A program made the translations under genes and the position numbers. Shown here piece by piece: positions 15,701 through 25,006 of a stretch of 31,686 nucleotides of DNA (its first letter is position 1; the number at the start of each line of letters is the position of its first letter). The DNA lies in the IMG/VR virus record IMGVR_UViG_3300030380_003868, positions 1 to 31,686 of that record. One strand, given 5' to 3'. The stretch is from a virus. The notes below the pieces were generated by a model, which was not told where the DNA came from, ran no database searches, and saw only the letters and a program-made list of their open reading frames with translations.

Positions 15701-16209
15701 CGATGGGTTCAGATATATTGGGTGGTGGAAATCAGTCACTTATTGCCGCAGGTGCCGGTTCTAAAGCGATGCGCGAAGTTTTCGCCAACATACCTTTGGC
15801 TTTGCAAATGGACGTAATGCTGGACTTGATTCGAGATCCAAAGCTACTGGCGATGTACCTTAAAAAGCCTGCTTCTGAAAAAGAAAAGCTTAACCTAGTT
15901 AACAGGGTCACTGATTACTTCAAGAAAAAAGGTTTAGATGTTACACGTCGCGGCGGTGCGGCCACGGCTCGTGAACTTGAAGAAGACATAGAGCAGGCGG
16001 TAACAGCACCCATTATCGAAGAAGAACCTGTACCGGCTCCTCCACCGACGCCCAGCGAGCCTTTGGTCCAGCTACCACCATTGCCACAGATACAAGGGGC
16101 ACCACAACAAGCTCAACCTAACCCACAACAGCGCATGCAATACGCCGCGTTGTTTCCAGAGGACGAGGCTTCTCAGATGATTCGCGGGGGTATCGGTAGC
16201 TTAGGCTAA
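12760..16209 (+). CDS. Very large internal-virion/ejection-like protein
   Basis: A 1149-residue protein, coupled to the previous gene by TAATG. The start is highly acidic (MVDDDDDILSG). Two hydrophobic Gly/Ala-rich regions (residues ~120-172, GAFGGAIGGAKLGAAMTAGV...IVTTLVGAIGGQGAV, and ~290-350) could be membrane-seeking. The large middle (~370-1040) is helical and charged. The C-terminus is a Pro/Gln linker ending RMQYAALFPEDEASQMIRGGIGSLG, a terminal motif I have seen on several marine phage virion proteins. Size, hydrophobic segments and position last in the tail run suit an injected internal protein of T7 gp16 type, but no lytic transglycosylase motif was found. Its last 9 nt overlap the 3' end of the opposite-strand helicase. 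Confidence 0.7.
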   Translation: MVDDDDDILSGPTPITLSQDELDAFVRELGGSNKAIPILAQEIAAALEEEQPEYFTGGYARLRNGTSTVFDLTEGTAELTPDQRGLSDVDIIRSFLVNPDGKPIREGSFGEGFKKEAPRQVGAFGGAIGGAKLGAAMTAGVPPVSPPTIALKFGVPIVTTLVGAIGGQGAVDYFQEKLMGEEDLVLPGTTADEEMGKTAATVAGFFATPWAISKNVNFGAAQYLDNLAKMNDEVVPLASKAYRGDQAAMQALTSPAMREALRTGGQGTRKLRFIRGSERMLSKTAEEARKNPLLTATAEAGFGAGATIGAGFAEEKYEGETIPRLFSETVGGLTTGLTIPGIVRGGISIFKNYDQVGPFFRDVKRRFDQGGIRAVVSGVKENRLQKATDRLRLLLEGSGEDVDFIIEQLEATGRALRDEAGNPIELTAGAKAGSPTLLAIEKYLENIAPRLGTDRAAAAESAIESIRAQVLLMSQSGDREALEASAQTLNDLFNAGLTERLSARTEKQLEAYRRVGGEDERSNAELGQALYDIASAELRKARAQETELWEAIPEYTIDMMGAERPAFMDIWSRLPDTPEKRELIIADLAPLNKFVNRKAEESQGFETMMDATLSSTELVDMRSVATELARTLRSQGKNNSARIAGEFAEAILEDLQRIPDESISQAYTAAREFSKALNDVYTRAFTGDVLATQRTGAERIPVETLMDRLLRGGADPTLMRIRDLQKVAQFAADEGLEGAEQTMANIDTVYEAMLRSARAKALDPTATGKINEKALYDWIRDHSELLDMFPALRSDLENLNTASVLLNRTKEYNRQKEVKIRRQVNFQNLLGENAESPVFSVSQALSAGNRAPLRSLDNLTRVAMRAPEAEQAGAKKALQGAILEWVMTKGGSTGTRFSPSAMWESLTDPIRGTGTDGVSLLDYMKNKGLMSDVEAKNLDSMLREMIKYEAGLNAGTIDQLAENSGPVFDLFLRISGAKLGTMGSDILGGGNQSLIAAGAGSKAMREVFANIPLALQMDVMLDLIRDPKLLAMYLKKPASEKEKLNLVNRVTDYFKKKGLDVTRRGGAATARELEEDIEQAVTAPIIEEEPVPAPPPTPSEPLVQLPPLPQIQGAPQQAQPNPQQRMQYAALFPEDEASQMIRGGIGSLG

Positions 16210-17652
16210 CCACCCCGCAACATCCTCTCTCAAAACAGTGCCTGCGAGATTTATTTTGTCACGTAGCGCCTGTAAAATCTTTTCATCGATGGTGTCAGGG
16301 CACACAAAGTCAATGTAGGTCACGCTCTTCTGCTGTCCTATTCGGTGTGCGCGATCCTCTGACTGAAGCCTAATTTCTAGATCATAACTGTTGCTGAAAT
16401 AAACAACGGTGTTGGCTTCTGTGAGCGTGATGCCATAACCACCTGTTCGGGGTTGTCCCACAAAAAAACGTAAATTGGAGGAAGGGTCTTGAAAACGCTC
16501 TACGATATCTTGCCGATCATCTTGGTCGGTTTCGCCATAGTAGGATGCTACGCTGTCGTTGCCGTACCGCTTGCGTAGCGCGTCCTCTATGCGGCGTATG
16601 TCGTAGGACCACGTTGCCCAGATAATGACTTTACCTTGGGTCTCTTCAGCCACGTTAAGCAACTCTTCAATGCGACTGTTTTTGATTTCCTGTATGTCAC
16701 CCTCGTCTGGTTGAAGAAAACCACAGCATATTTGTTGTAGGCGCATGATCTGCGTCAAGACAGATTGTGTCGTGGACAACTCGCCTTTCTCTAACATCGC
16801 TAAAGCAAACTCTTGCATCTGTACATATACTTTTTTCTGCTCTGTGCTGAGTGGAATCTCTCGTCTCGTATACACTTTGTCCGGCAAATCAAGGCAATCT
16901 TGCTTCAAAACACGCAAACTAAACTCATCCAACCTATTGCCAAGCTCGTCTAGGCGTTGGTATCCAGTAATTTCTTGGAAACTATGCGCCCCTAACGTCC
17001 GACGACGGACCACGGCATATCGAGATTGAAAACTGTAATAGCTGGCAAAGCCTAAAGCCCTGTCATCAAGAAAGGCACACTGCGTGTACAAGTCCATTGG
17101 CGACTTAGAAATAGGCGAGCCTGTCAAAATGCGGCGGTACTTTGCTTCCCTGCCGACCTTGACCAGATTCTTGGTGCGCACCGCACCTTTGTTCTTAATA
17201 GTGGTGCTCTCATCAACAACCATAAAATTACGAGGGTTGTTGCGCAGATACTTCATCGCCACGTTCGTACCCTTGTCAGTGCTGAAAGCCTCGGTGTTCA
17301 TGACCAGCACGTTCAAATGTCCCGCCTCACGCTCCGAAGGCACCGCAATCTTACGCAACGCGTCCTTGAATTTATTGGTAAAGTTGGGTTGCCAACGGAC
17401 CACGGATCTTGGGATACGGTCAGGTAGGTGCCGTGGTATCTCTTGCTTTACCCAGTTGTCGAAGACACCTTTTGGTGCCACAACTAACACAGTATCTATC
17501 TCGCCTTCCTCAAATAAAGCGCCAATCGTATCGATAGTGACTTTACTTTTACCTGTCCCCATCTCCATGAAAAGCGCGTAGTACGGGCGTCTCCACGAAT
17601 TTACAAAGGCGTCCCGCTGGTGCTCATATGGCTCTGTCTTGAACTGAAACAT
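16201..17652 (-). CDS. SNF2-family (SF2) DNA helicase/ATPase
   Basis: A 483-residue protein. The start is ATG at 17652 because GGAG lies six bases upstream on this strand; a longer reading to 17718 has no ribosome site. SF2/SNF2 motifs are all visible: Q12 in YEHQRDAF, Walker A MGTGKS (31-36), motif Ia VVAPKGVFDNWVKE-like, motif II DEST (147-150), motif III LTGSP (176-180), motif V TGGYGITLTEA (~403-413) and motif VI QSEDRAHRIGQ (430-440), the SNF2 signature. These proteins translocate on dsDNA; in phages they are thought to assist replication, recombination or repair. It is the only minus-strand gene here, convergent with the virion genes and divergent from the replication operon. Confidence 0.93.
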   Translation of the reverse strand: MFQFKTEPYEHQRDAFVNSWRRPYYALFMEMGTGKSKVTIDTIGALFEEGEIDTVLVVAPKGVFDNWVKQEIPRHLPDRIPRSVVRWQPNFTNKFKDALRKIAVPSEREAGHLNVLVMNTEAFSTDKGTNVAMKYLRNNPRNFMVVDESTTIKNKGAVRTKNLVKVGREAKYRRILTGSPISKSPMDLYTQCAFLDDRALGFASYYSFQSRYAVVRRRTLGAHSFQEITGYQRLDELGNRLDEFSLRVLKQDCLDLPDKVYTRREIPLSTEQKKVYVQMQEFALAMLEKGELSTTQSVLTQIMRLQQICCGFLQPDEGDIQEIKNSRIEELLNVAEETQGKVIIWATWSYDIRRIEDALRKRYGNDSVASYYGETDQDDRQDIVERFQDPSSNLRFFVGQPRTGGYGITLTEANTVVYFSNSYDLEIRLQSEDRAHRIGQQKSVTYIDFVCPDTIDEKILQALRDKINLAGTVLREDVAGWLA

Positions 17653-17667
17653 TTTTATCTCCAACGC

Positions 17668-17697
17668 TTGATATGCAATGATATATGATGCTATGGT
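17668..17697 (+). promoter_or_regulatory. Candidate promoter of replication operon (extended -10)
   Basis: TTGATA (17668-17673, 5/6 to the -35 consensus), an 18-nt spacer, TATGGT (17692-17697, 4/6 to -10) and a TG one base before the -10 form a plausible sigma70 promoter in the 93-nt divergent gap. The AT-rich centre (ATATGCAATGATATATGAT) could also serve the minus-strand helicase. ATATGCAATG loosely resembles the ATATGCGATA promoters in the right-hand region. Confidence 0.5.
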
Positions 17698-17745
17698 CTC
17701 TTTCCAGCCCAAAAACAACGGGCCTAACCACGAAAGGAGACTAAA

Positions 17746-22457: not shown

Positions 22458-22606
22458 CTTCCGATATGACTTCCATCCCCTGCCCAAAGTGCGGCAACAA
22501 AGCAAAAGAAATTATCCACGCCGCTGAGAACAAACGACGAGGGTGGTACTGCGAAAGCTGTAAGCACTACGAAATCGCAATCCTCAGAGAGAAGAAGGTA
22601 GCCTAA
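22454..22606 (+). CDS. Small zinc-ribbon protein
   Basis: A 50-residue protein with two CxxC knuckles: CPKC (Cys10, Cys13) and CESC (Cys33, Cys36), separated by 19 residues with basic AENKRRGWY. This is a minimal zinc ribbon of the kind found in nucleic-acid-binding adaptors. It starts in an ATGA overlap with the previous gene and its stop TAA shares a base with the polymerase ATG, so it is tightly coupled on both sides. It could contact DNA or the polymerase; no partner can be read from sequence. Confidence 0.75.
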   Translation: MTSDMTSIPCPKCGNKAKEIIHAAENKRRGWYCESCKHYEIAILREKKVA

Positions 22607-24510
22607 TGACCGGCAAACTACAGATGGCAATGTTCCCACCCAAAACAGATTGGGTGCCTATTGCAGAGTTTCCTGACCTTACCGATGCAAAGGAAATCGC
22701 CATCGACGTGGAAACACGCGACCCGCATTTGAAAGAGCGCGGTCCGGGTTGGCCCACCAAAAACGGGGAAGTCGTGGGCTACGCCATTGCTGTCGCAGGC
22801 TGGTCTACCTACATCCCCGTCGGTCACGCAGGAGGCGGAAACCTCGATGCACGGATCACGGCCCGCTGGCTCAAGAAAGTATTCGAGTGCCCTGCCGACA
22901 AAATCATGCATAACGCACAATACGACCTTGGGTGGATTCGTGCCATGGGCTTCACAGTCAACGGCAAAATCATCGATACCATGATGACCGCCAGCCTAAT
23001 CGACGAAAACCGTTTTAGCTACAGCTTGAACGCGCTGGCTTACGATTACCTTGGTAAAACCAAATCTGAAAAAACCCTGACCGAAGCCGCACGCAGTTTT
23101 GGCGTAGACCCCAAGTCAGAAATGTGGCGTCTGCCTGCAATGTATGTCGGCCCTTACGCAGAAGTGGATGCAGAGCTTACCCTTGAGCTTTGGGATCATT
23201 TCAAAACTATTCTTAACCGCGAAGATTTATGGAATATTTGGGAACTTGAAACCGAACTCCTACCCTGCTTAGTCGAGATGACTATGCGTGGCATACGCGT
23301 CGATGCAGACAAAGCAGAGCGCACCAAACAATCTTTAATGCGGCGAGAAGCACATCTACATAAATGTATTAAAAAAATCGTGGGTAAAGACGTTGAGATC
23401 TGGGCGGCTCAATCCATCGCCCAAGCTTTTGACAAACTATCGATACCTTATCCAAAAACAGAGAAGGGTACGCCTAGCTTTACAAAAACATTCTTACTCG
23501 AACACAACAGCGAGTTAGCCGGTTTGATCGTACAGTGCCGTAACGTTAATAAAACACACGGTAGCTTTATCGACGGCGTCATGAAATACGTTCATAACGG
23601 TCGTGTGCATAGCCATGTGAACCAACTACGATCCGACGACGGTGGTACCGTCAGTGGCCGTATGAGTTACAACTCGCCTAACCTCCAACAAATCCCGGCT
23701 CGCGATCCAGAGCTTGGCCCCCTCATCCGTTCCCTATTTGTCCCCGAAGAAGGTCAGCAGTGGGCGGCTATCGACTTCTCGCAACAGGAACCACGGATCT
23801 TGGTGCACTATGCTAGGGCGTTCGGTGAATCACGTAATGCACCCTTGGCGGGCGTCGATGAAATTGTTGAGGCGTACTGCACCAAAGCGGACACTGATTT
23901 TCATACCATGGTCGCTGAAATGGCAAACATTCCCCGTAAACAAGCCAAAACCATAAATCTAGGCATGATGTATGGCATGGGTGTCAATAAGTTAGCCGAC
24001 CAACTGGATTTATCTATCGACGAAGCGAAAGCCCTGACCAAGCAATACCACGAACGCGTCCCATTCGTTAAAGCACTTATGCGGGGCGTCCAACAACGAC
24101 TCGAAGACCCACGGTCCTCCGGGTCCATACGGTCCCTCAAAGGACGCAAGTGCCGGTTCGATTTATGGGAACCCGATACATTTGCCATGCACAAGGCCCT
24201 GCCCCGTGAAGAAGCCATCGCGACTCACGGGCCAACGACACGTTTAAAACGTGCCTATACCTACAAAGCACTAAACCGACTCATCCAAGCTTCCGCCGCC
24301 GATATGACCAAGCAAGCGATGCTTGACTGTTATAAAGCTGGTCATATACCCATGCTTCAAGTCCATGACGAATTGGCTTTTTCCGTAGACAGTATTGATC
24401 AAGCAAGAGAGTTGTCTACGATGATGGAACAGGCAATACCTATCGAGGTGCCAAATCGTTGTGATATTGAGATTGGTCCTTCGTGGGGGGAATGTGAGGA
24501 CGTAACCTAA
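22606..24510 (+). CDS. DNA polymerase, family A, with 3'-5' exonuclease
   Basis: A 634-residue PolA without a 5'-3' exonuclease domain. Proofreading domain: Exo I IDVET (Asp34, Glu36), Exo II MHNAQYDL (Asn103, Asp107), Exo III YAEVD (Tyr184, Asp188). Polymerase: motif A AAIDFSQQEPR (Asp390), motif B RKQAKTINLGMMYG (Lys448, Tyr456) and motif C QVHDE (His587-Asp588-Glu589), so all catalytic residues are present. The residue matching E. coli Phe762 is Leu452, the form frequent in marine viral PolA and thought to slow synthesis and raise fidelity. A T7-type thioredoxin-binding insertion was not seen. It ends the operon; no classical terminator follows directly. Confidence 0.96.
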   Translation: MTGKLQMAMFPPKTDWVPIAEFPDLTDAKEIAIDVETRDPHLKERGPGWPTKNGEVVGYAIAVAGWSTYIPVGHAGGGNLDARITARWLKKVFECPADKIMHNAQYDLGWIRAMGFTVNGKIIDTMMTASLIDENRFSYSLNALAYDYLGKTKSEKTLTEAARSFGVDPKSEMWRLPAMYVGPYAEVDAELTLELWDHFKTILNREDLWNIWELETELLPCLVEMTMRGIRVDADKAERTKQSLMRREAHLHKCIKKIVGKDVEIWAAQSIAQAFDKLSIPYPKTEKGTPSFTKTFLLEHNSELAGLIVQCRNVNKTHGSFIDGVMKYVHNGRVHSHVNQLRSDDGGTVSGRMSYNSPNLQQIPARDPELGPLIRSLFVPEEGQQWAAIDFSQQEPRILVHYARAFGESRNAPLAGVDEIVEAYCTKADTDFHTMVAEMANIPRKQAKTINLGMMYGMGVNKLADQLDLSIDEAKALTKQYHERVPFVKALMRGVQQRLEDPRSSGSIRSLKGRKCRFDLWEPDTFAMHKALPREEAIATHGPTTRLKRAYTYKALNRLIQASAADMTKQAMLDCYKAGHIPMLQVHDELAFSVDSIDQARELSTMMEQAIPIEVPNRCDIEIGPSWGECEDVT

Positions 24511-24538
24511 AAAAACCAGCTATTCTATACATTAAATC

Positions 24539-24565
24539 TTGCTTTATCTAAGATAATCGTATAGA
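24539..24565 (+). promoter_or_regulatory. Weak candidate promoter before the tandem repeats
   Basis: TTGCTT (24539-24544) and TATAGA (24560-24565) are 15 nt apart, shorter than ideal, in an AT-rich stretch just after the polymerase gene. A transcript from here would carry the three repeats in its 5' leader ahead of the ribbon-helix-helix gene. Confidence 0.25.
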
Positions 24566-24575
24566 TTTGCTTACA

Positions 24576-24747
24576 GGACAGGGGAGACCCAATATCGCTG
24601 GCATAAGACACCGGTGTCCGAAAACGTCTAGGACAGGGTATTCCGACACCCAAATTGCTGGCGTAAAGCACCAGTGTCCGAAACGCTCAGGACAGGGAGG
24701 TGGCTCCCCGTAACATGGTCTGAGGCACCGGGGTCTGAAACGCCTCA
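24576..24747 (+). repeat. Three tandem ~58-nt imperfect repeats with conserved hairpins
   Basis: Units are 24576-24630 (55 nt), 24631-24689 (59 nt) and 24690-24747 (58 nt). Each starts GGACAGGG and ends in a form of CACCnGTGTCCGAAACG. Hairpin 1 differs in sequence but is kept: GGG-GAGA-CCC, GGGT-(8 nt)-ACCC, GGGAG-GTGG-CTCCC. Hairpin 2 closes with TA(A)GAC/GTCTA, AGC/GCT and TGAGGC/GCCTCA around a conserved loop. Such compensatory change points to selected RNA or DNA secondary structure. Unit 1 also has a 12-bp palindrome, GACACCGGTGTC. Unit lengths are not multiples of three. The block lies directly before an RHH gene: operator array, structured leader or origin are the main options. Confidence 0.8.
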
Positions 24748-24769
24748 CCTATTAACTGGAGATTTTTGT

Positions 24770-25006
24770 ATGGATACCACAAAGTGGAAATCAGTACTCA
24801 TGCCTCGCGATGTCTACGAAGAAATCGTGGTCATTGCCCGTGTAGAAGGCCGCACAATCAGCGGACAGCTACGCTACATCACAGAAGCATGGAAGCAGGC
24901 CAACCTGACAAAGAACGATCAGGCGTTTATTAAGGATGAAGTAGCCAAGTTCCACGATGCAAACGGCCAGACCAAACCGCTTACGTCAAAAAGCTTTTCT
25001 ATTTGA
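24770..25006 (+). CDS. Ribbon-helix-helix-like small DNA-binding protein
   Basis: A 78-residue protein beginning at ATG 24770, with GGAG 8-9 nt upstream. Residues ~5-45 read strand (WKSVLMPR), helix (DVYEEIVVIARVEG), turn, helix (TISGQLRYITEAWKQAN), which is the MetJ/Arc-type ribbon-helix-helix order with a basic/polar strand for DNA contact. The tail is flexible and basic (KPLTSKSF). RHH repressors usually bind repeated operators, and three tandem repeats lie 23 nt upstream, so autoregulation is plausible. It is coupled by TGATG to the next gene. Confidence 0.6.
   Translation: MDTTKWKSVLMPRDVYEEIVVIARVEGRTISGQLRYITEAWKQANLTKNDQAFIKDEVAKFHDANGQTKPLTSKSFSI

Follow-up and report, generated by a model that had tools for sequence, protein, structure and literature searches.

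STAXI (RF01728) consists of two or three pseudoknots in tandem, located near integrases and other DNA-handling genes, and its function is unknown (PMC2864571). In mosquito-borne flaviviruses, xrRNAs are also found in tandem and adopt a P1-P2-P3 three-way junction with an L3-S4 pseudoknot (PMC5760640, PMC7603331); such an RNA halts the bacterial exonuclease RNase J1 (PMC5760640). The 'coremin' xrRNA of plant viruses, for its part, contains the motif GUCCGAA (PMC10520033). Repeated RNA pseudoknots have also been recruited by a phage: in phage TE, pseudo-ToxI repeats allow escape from ToxIN, a type III toxin-antitoxin system (PMC5086642). Here we describe a tandem array of pseudoknotted modules in a phage genome. 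It appears to represent a new family of structured RNA, found in two unrelated phages, whose fold, strand and position are defined.

Fold of the three units

The window, i.e., the whole stretch of 31,686 nucleotides that was analysed, comes from a tailed phage carrying a gene for DNA polymerase A, whose nearest annotated phage matches, in phage DSL-LC04 and Pelagibacter phages, show at most 56% identity. Apart from a SNF2-type helicase gene, its long ORFs lie mostly on the plus strand. Three tandem units, whose P1 helices start 55 and 59 nt apart, follow the polymerase gene and precede a gene for a 78-aa ribbon-helix-helix-like protein (Table 1). ARAGORN predicts no tRNA in the array region.

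Each unit is a three-way junction made of P1 (GGAC/GTCC), P2 (GGG/CCC) and P3 (GCTGG/CCAGT), to which a pseudoknot is added by pairing of loop L3 with bases past P1, with a GAAA(A)C linker in between. When units are folded singly, ViennaRNA recovers the P1-P2-P3 junction for most of them. An earlier, sequence-only reading of this DNA had proposed two simple hairpins per unit, and its pairings all exist: the first set (GGG/CCC, GGGT/ACCC, GGGAG/CTCCC) is P2 of the units. The second set (GAC/GTC, AGC/GCT, TGAGGC/GCCTCA), however, is not a hairpin but the pseudoknot, which spans P3 and P1. The supposed conserved loop, CACCnGTGTCCGAAAC, actually contains the 3' strands of P3 and P1, which are contiguous in all units (0 nt between them), and the supposed GGA-containing 'ACAGGACA linker' is not free either, as it has the 5' strand of P1 inside. 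Since GGA is paired in P1, the suggestion of a sponge of the CsrA/GGA type was abandoned.

Table 1. Positions of the array and its surroundings in the window
Feature	Position	Strand	Details
SNF2-type helicase gene	16201-17718	-	
DNA polymerase A gene	22606-24510	+	upstream of array; phrog_17, E=3e-115
-10-like box GATAAT (in GATAATCGTATAG)	24552-24557	+	putative leader promoter
Unit 1	24576-24629	+	P1 24576-24579/24616-24619; P2 24581-24583/24588-24590; P3 24597-24601/24611-24615
Unit 1 pseudoknot		+	AGAC 24606-24609 with GTCT 24626-24629; linker GAAAAC 24620-24625
Unit 2	24631-24687	+	P1 24631-24634/24676-24679; P2 24636-24639/24648-24651; P3 24657-24661/24671-24675
Unit 2 pseudoknot		+	AGC 24667-24669 with GCT 24685-24687; linker GAAAC 24680-24684
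Unit 3	24690-24746	+	P1 24690-24693/24733-24736; P2 24695-24699/24704-24708; P3 24714-24718/24728-24732
Unit 3 pseudoknot		+	GAGGC 24722-24726 with GCCTC 24742-24746; linker GAAAC 24737-24741
GGAG, likely ribosome-binding site	24758-24761	+	12 nt past last pseudoknot strand; from sequence
Ribbon-helix-helix-like protein gene (78 aa)	24770-25006	+	3' of array; RHH_5, E=4.5e-4, short of Pfam's cut-off

Pairing of GTCC with the GGAC of the next unit was considered and rejected. Unit 3 has no downstream partner and, in the third unit of the related contig L106, an AGAC/GTCT change is compensated inside the unit, when pairing with the GTCC of the previous unit would be broken; P1 therefore forms within a unit and not between neighbours. 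Outside the helices, conservation is mainly restricted to A5, A25 and GAAA, and both the P2 loop and the P2-P3 joint differ in length and sequence. The small number of invariant unpaired bases and the variability around P2 suggest that a shape, rather than a ligand pocket, is selected. Not all copies are perfect: unit 3 of the window has one G-U pair in P1 and one mismatch in P3, the latter helix being intact in the related contigs L004, L103 and L106. The first unit of two of these (L103 392-449 and L106 4911-4969) is devoid of P2 and carries an extra T before GAAA, with P1, P3 and the pseudoknot retained; this may be decay or, alternatively, a natural experiment on the parts that the module requires. 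Together, this loss of P2 and the P3 mismatch of the window indicate that some copies are not intact.

Covariation and distribution of the module

Folding energies are ordinary (z = -0.45 for the array, and -0.1 to -2.6 for single units), so that the case for the fold rests on covariation rather than on stability; energy models of the whole array, computed without pseudoknot terms, favour long-range pairings (-60.1 versus -37.8 kcal/mol). Covariation was assessed on a hand-anchored alignment (A2) of 14 units from seven contigs, from which the variable loops were taken out; its 13 distinct rows, or 218 cells, were compared to 500 shuffles. Pairing is found in 95.0% of cells, versus a shuffled mean of 87.9% (0 of 500 shuffles as high), and the covariation score of 0.262, versus 0.145, was not equalled in any shuffle. 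Pairs changed on both sides number 6, as opposed to 2.6 in shuffles (1 of 500 as high), values to be read as counts and not as probabilities because the shuffles ignore the relatedness of the sequences, which inflates them.

Changes are seen in P1, P2, P3 and the pseudoknot alike. Third units of related phages show G-C, G-U and A-U states in P1 as well as in P2, and P3 and the pseudoknot alternate between C-G/U-A and G-C/A-U. The compensating mutations seen over the 14 copies are indicative of selection on the fold, in line with the earlier suggestion of three tandem structured elements with compensatory changes, which is now borne out in homologues. That these are only structured-looking repeats, resulting from duplication, chance pairing and inheritance, would agree with the ordinary energies of the units and with the close relationship of many orthologues. 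This explanation is nonetheless largely refuted, and to us extremely improbable, as all four helices are compensated, both between paralogues and between unrelated phages, and as sliding the 3' strands as a control leaves at most 46% of cells paired. G-U pairs account for 17 of the 218 cells, where the other strand would show A-C mismatches, and all copies share the orientation of the adjoining genes, which together point to a transcribed, plus-strand RNA and argue against the hairpin replication origin that had also been envisaged. Comparison of the copies hence shows both the fold of the module and its plus-strand orientation.

Pattern scans of IMG/VR found the array in close relatives, with three units in L004, L103 and L106, two in L030 and L101, and an array identical to that of the window in L086. 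In addition, one diverged unit is present in an unrelated phage, represented by three contigs (L088, L093 and L102), and shares with the window units 80-86% of 44 aligned core columns. In L088, an operon that includes Erf-like and RecE-like genes precedes this unit, which lies 18 nt past the stop codon of the final ORF and is followed by a strong GC-rich terminator and, farther on, by an integrase gene. A model built from 12 units (R1) scores the array relatives and the unit of the unrelated phage at 47-80 bits, and gave no convincing match across 77 loci of polymerase relatives.

Similar DNA was not found in annotated phages and plasmids. A search of a species-level genome collection with one pattern gave no true match, and among 1,145 genomes sampled from two proteobacterial classes the only hit (L319, 30 bits) is ascribed to chance, as it is antisense within a LysR gene; because the filters were strict and a positive control was lacking, these absences from genomes are weak evidence. 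Other candidates were dismissed as well. A locus beside tRNA genes (L104, GGACAGGG...GTGTCCGAAA) is devoid of P3 and scores 13 bits with R1; a weak match of 17.9 bits (L272) overlaps an ORF start and is put down to chance, as are the other loci from eight pattern scans, which have neither P3 nor pseudoknot and are mostly coding-like. The earlier failure to match the array to a named RNA class stands: Rfam 15, applied to the entire window, gave zero matches at gathering score, and only weak, irrelevant ones at E<=10 for the array and the L088 copy.

Probable leader position and candidate functions

Of 84 loci, 82 have the ribbon-helix-helix gene as the downstream neighbour of the polymerase gene, and 7 of these 82, all from the clade of the window, carry the array. 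Comparison of the gap between the two genes (24511-24769 in the window) across the 82 loci shows that it is empty in many (42-75 nt), or contains small ORFs, larger insertions or the RNA array; the two conserved genes thus flank a slot for variable cargo. In L106, an extra 111-aa ORF separates the array, which is retained, from the ribbon-helix-helix gene. Among array-less relatives, 58 of 62 distinct loci carry a TATAAT-like hexamer (at least 5 of 6 positions) 29-53 nt 5' of the ribbon-helix-helix gene, compared to 35% in shuffles. In the array phages, a -10-like box instead precedes the array and none is present between array and gene. A generic sigma-70 scan missed this box in the window, and no -35 box was recognised. 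This displacement of the box, together with synteny, suggests that the array is probably the 5' leader of the transcript of the ribbon-helix-helix gene, as one of the functions first proposed, a tandem structured leader, would have it. The first P1 begins about 19 nt after the box, and hence close to the presumed 5' end. In relatives such as L029, L006 and L044, a conserved TATAMT box about 29-53 nt before the ribbon-helix-helix gene is followed after a few bases by (C/G)nTATAC, which is possibly a promoter plus operator for the ribbon-helix-helix protein.

What such a leader would do is more tentative. The reading that we put forward, with distinctly less than even confidence, is that the three modules are transcribed from the plus strand at the head of the ribbon-helix-helix mRNA, where each P1-P2-P3 junction, locked by its pseudoknot between L3 and the bases past P1, would act in cis as a stiff, 5'-proximal block shielding its own transcript from ribonucleases. 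In the integrase phage, the module would shield the 3' end of the transcript of the upstream operon, and additional copies could serve as back-ups. A general effect on the carrier RNA, e.g., protection from decay, is favoured over the control of a single gene because the element stays while the following genes differ, and because it sits at the end of an operon in the second phage. The flavivirus xrRNA, which stops RNase J1 with the same P1-P2-P3 and L3-S4 topology, offers a precedent.

A cis-regulatory switch, in which the module would sense a metabolite or bind a protein, possibly the ribbon-helix-helix protein itself, and thereby control downstream translation or transcription, seems fairly unlikely. 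It would fit a leader placed directly ahead of a ribosome-binding site, the strong terminator between the L088 copy and the integrase gene, and the tandem layout, also known for glnA (PMC2864571), in which several copies would make the response sharper, an idea already put forward for the tandem glnA riboswitches. However, invariant unpaired bases are few, the genes that follow vary (ribbon-helix-helix-like, 111-aa ORF, integrase), relatives have the same gene without the leader, and inspection by eye revealed neither a clear antiterminator nor a clearly sequestered ribosome-binding site. We consider unlikely a role in trans, in which the pseudoknot repeats would occupy a ribonuclease or a defence protein of the host, a phage precedent being the pseudo-ToxI of phage TE (PMC5086642). 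Two to three pseudoknot repeats in a cargo slot, with a copy number that differs between phages and no toxin-like neighbour (PADLOC gave nothing relevant), would agree with such a decoy, which would then represent a novel type of RNA counter-defence. Against this, the repeats diverge by up to 45% across the aligned core, the units measure 55-59 nt versus 34-36 nt for ToxI, their topology combines a junction with a pseudoknot, and no counterpart came out of the 1,145 sampled proteobacterial genomes or of the one-pattern search of the species-level collection.

A STAXI-like element, i.e., tandem pseudoknots of mobile DNA near DNA-handling genes, perhaps acting as folded single-stranded DNA, is very unlikely in our estimation. 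The neighbours, a DNA polymerase gene in the group of the window and RecE-like, Erf-like and integrase genes in that of L088, resemble those of STAXI (PMC2864571), and the pseudoknots likewise come in twos or threes; the strand order and sequence are different, however, the models do not match in either direction, and the G-U cells favour a plus-strand RNA.

Comparison with known systems

Some resemblances do not hold. HDV-like, hammerhead, pistol and twister ribozymes differ in strand order or core, and none is matched in Rfam. The GUCCGAA shared with the plant-virus 'coremin' xrRNA is a coincidence, as the GUC/GAC hairpin is impossible in the array. The glnA and Downstream-peptide (glutamine) riboswitches are also short 5'-leader aptamers from marine settings, sometimes tandem in the case of glnA, but have no Rfam match here at E<=10. 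Type III antitoxins (ToxI, CptI, TenpI) and the phage pseudo-ToxI share with the array tandem RNA pseudoknots in variable copy number; the array units, in contrast, are longer, diverged and built on a three-way junction, and PADLOC and Pfam reveal no endoribonuclease toxin gene adjoining them (neighbours are ribbon-helix-helix-like, small ORFs or integrase).

The three-way junction with an L3-S4 pseudoknot is the feature that the array units have in common with the flavivirus xrRNA. The second pseudoknot of the latter (PK1), which joins the 5' end to bases between P3 and P1, has no counterpart, nor has its base triple, and PK1 cannot form since 0 nt separate P3 and P1 in the array. The two RNAs belong to different virus worlds, and exonuclease resistance of the array would be an analogy only. 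It is quite improbable that a DNA phage has convergently evolved an exonuclease-blocking RNA of this topology, tandem in a 5' leader and at the 3' end of an operon elsewhere; if the junction did block ribonucleases, it would be the bacterial-virus counterpart of xrRNA.

The nearest known kind is STAXI. An E. coli example, located via published primers (PMC12370729), scores 134 bits in the same RF01728 pipeline with which neither the window record nor the array region gave a match at E<=10, and R1 found nothing above background on STAXI. In this example (L318, 244-395), pseudoknot strands compensated between copies can be read by eye (GUUCC/GGGAC, GUUUC/GAAAC, AUCCUC/GAGGAU). Its strand order, with the pseudoknot read from sequence, is A5'-B5'-UGARA-A3'-UUCG hairpin-B3' with CCAAUG linkers, unlike the array units, in which a three-way junction is followed by a GAAAC linker and a 3' pseudoknot strand past P1. 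The two nevertheless share a pseudoknot repeated two to three times, with diverged and compensated stems, in a mobile-element setting. The array is thus distinct from STAXI, although it may belong to the same kind, and would add a second, different fold to this small class of mobile-element tandem pseudoknots.
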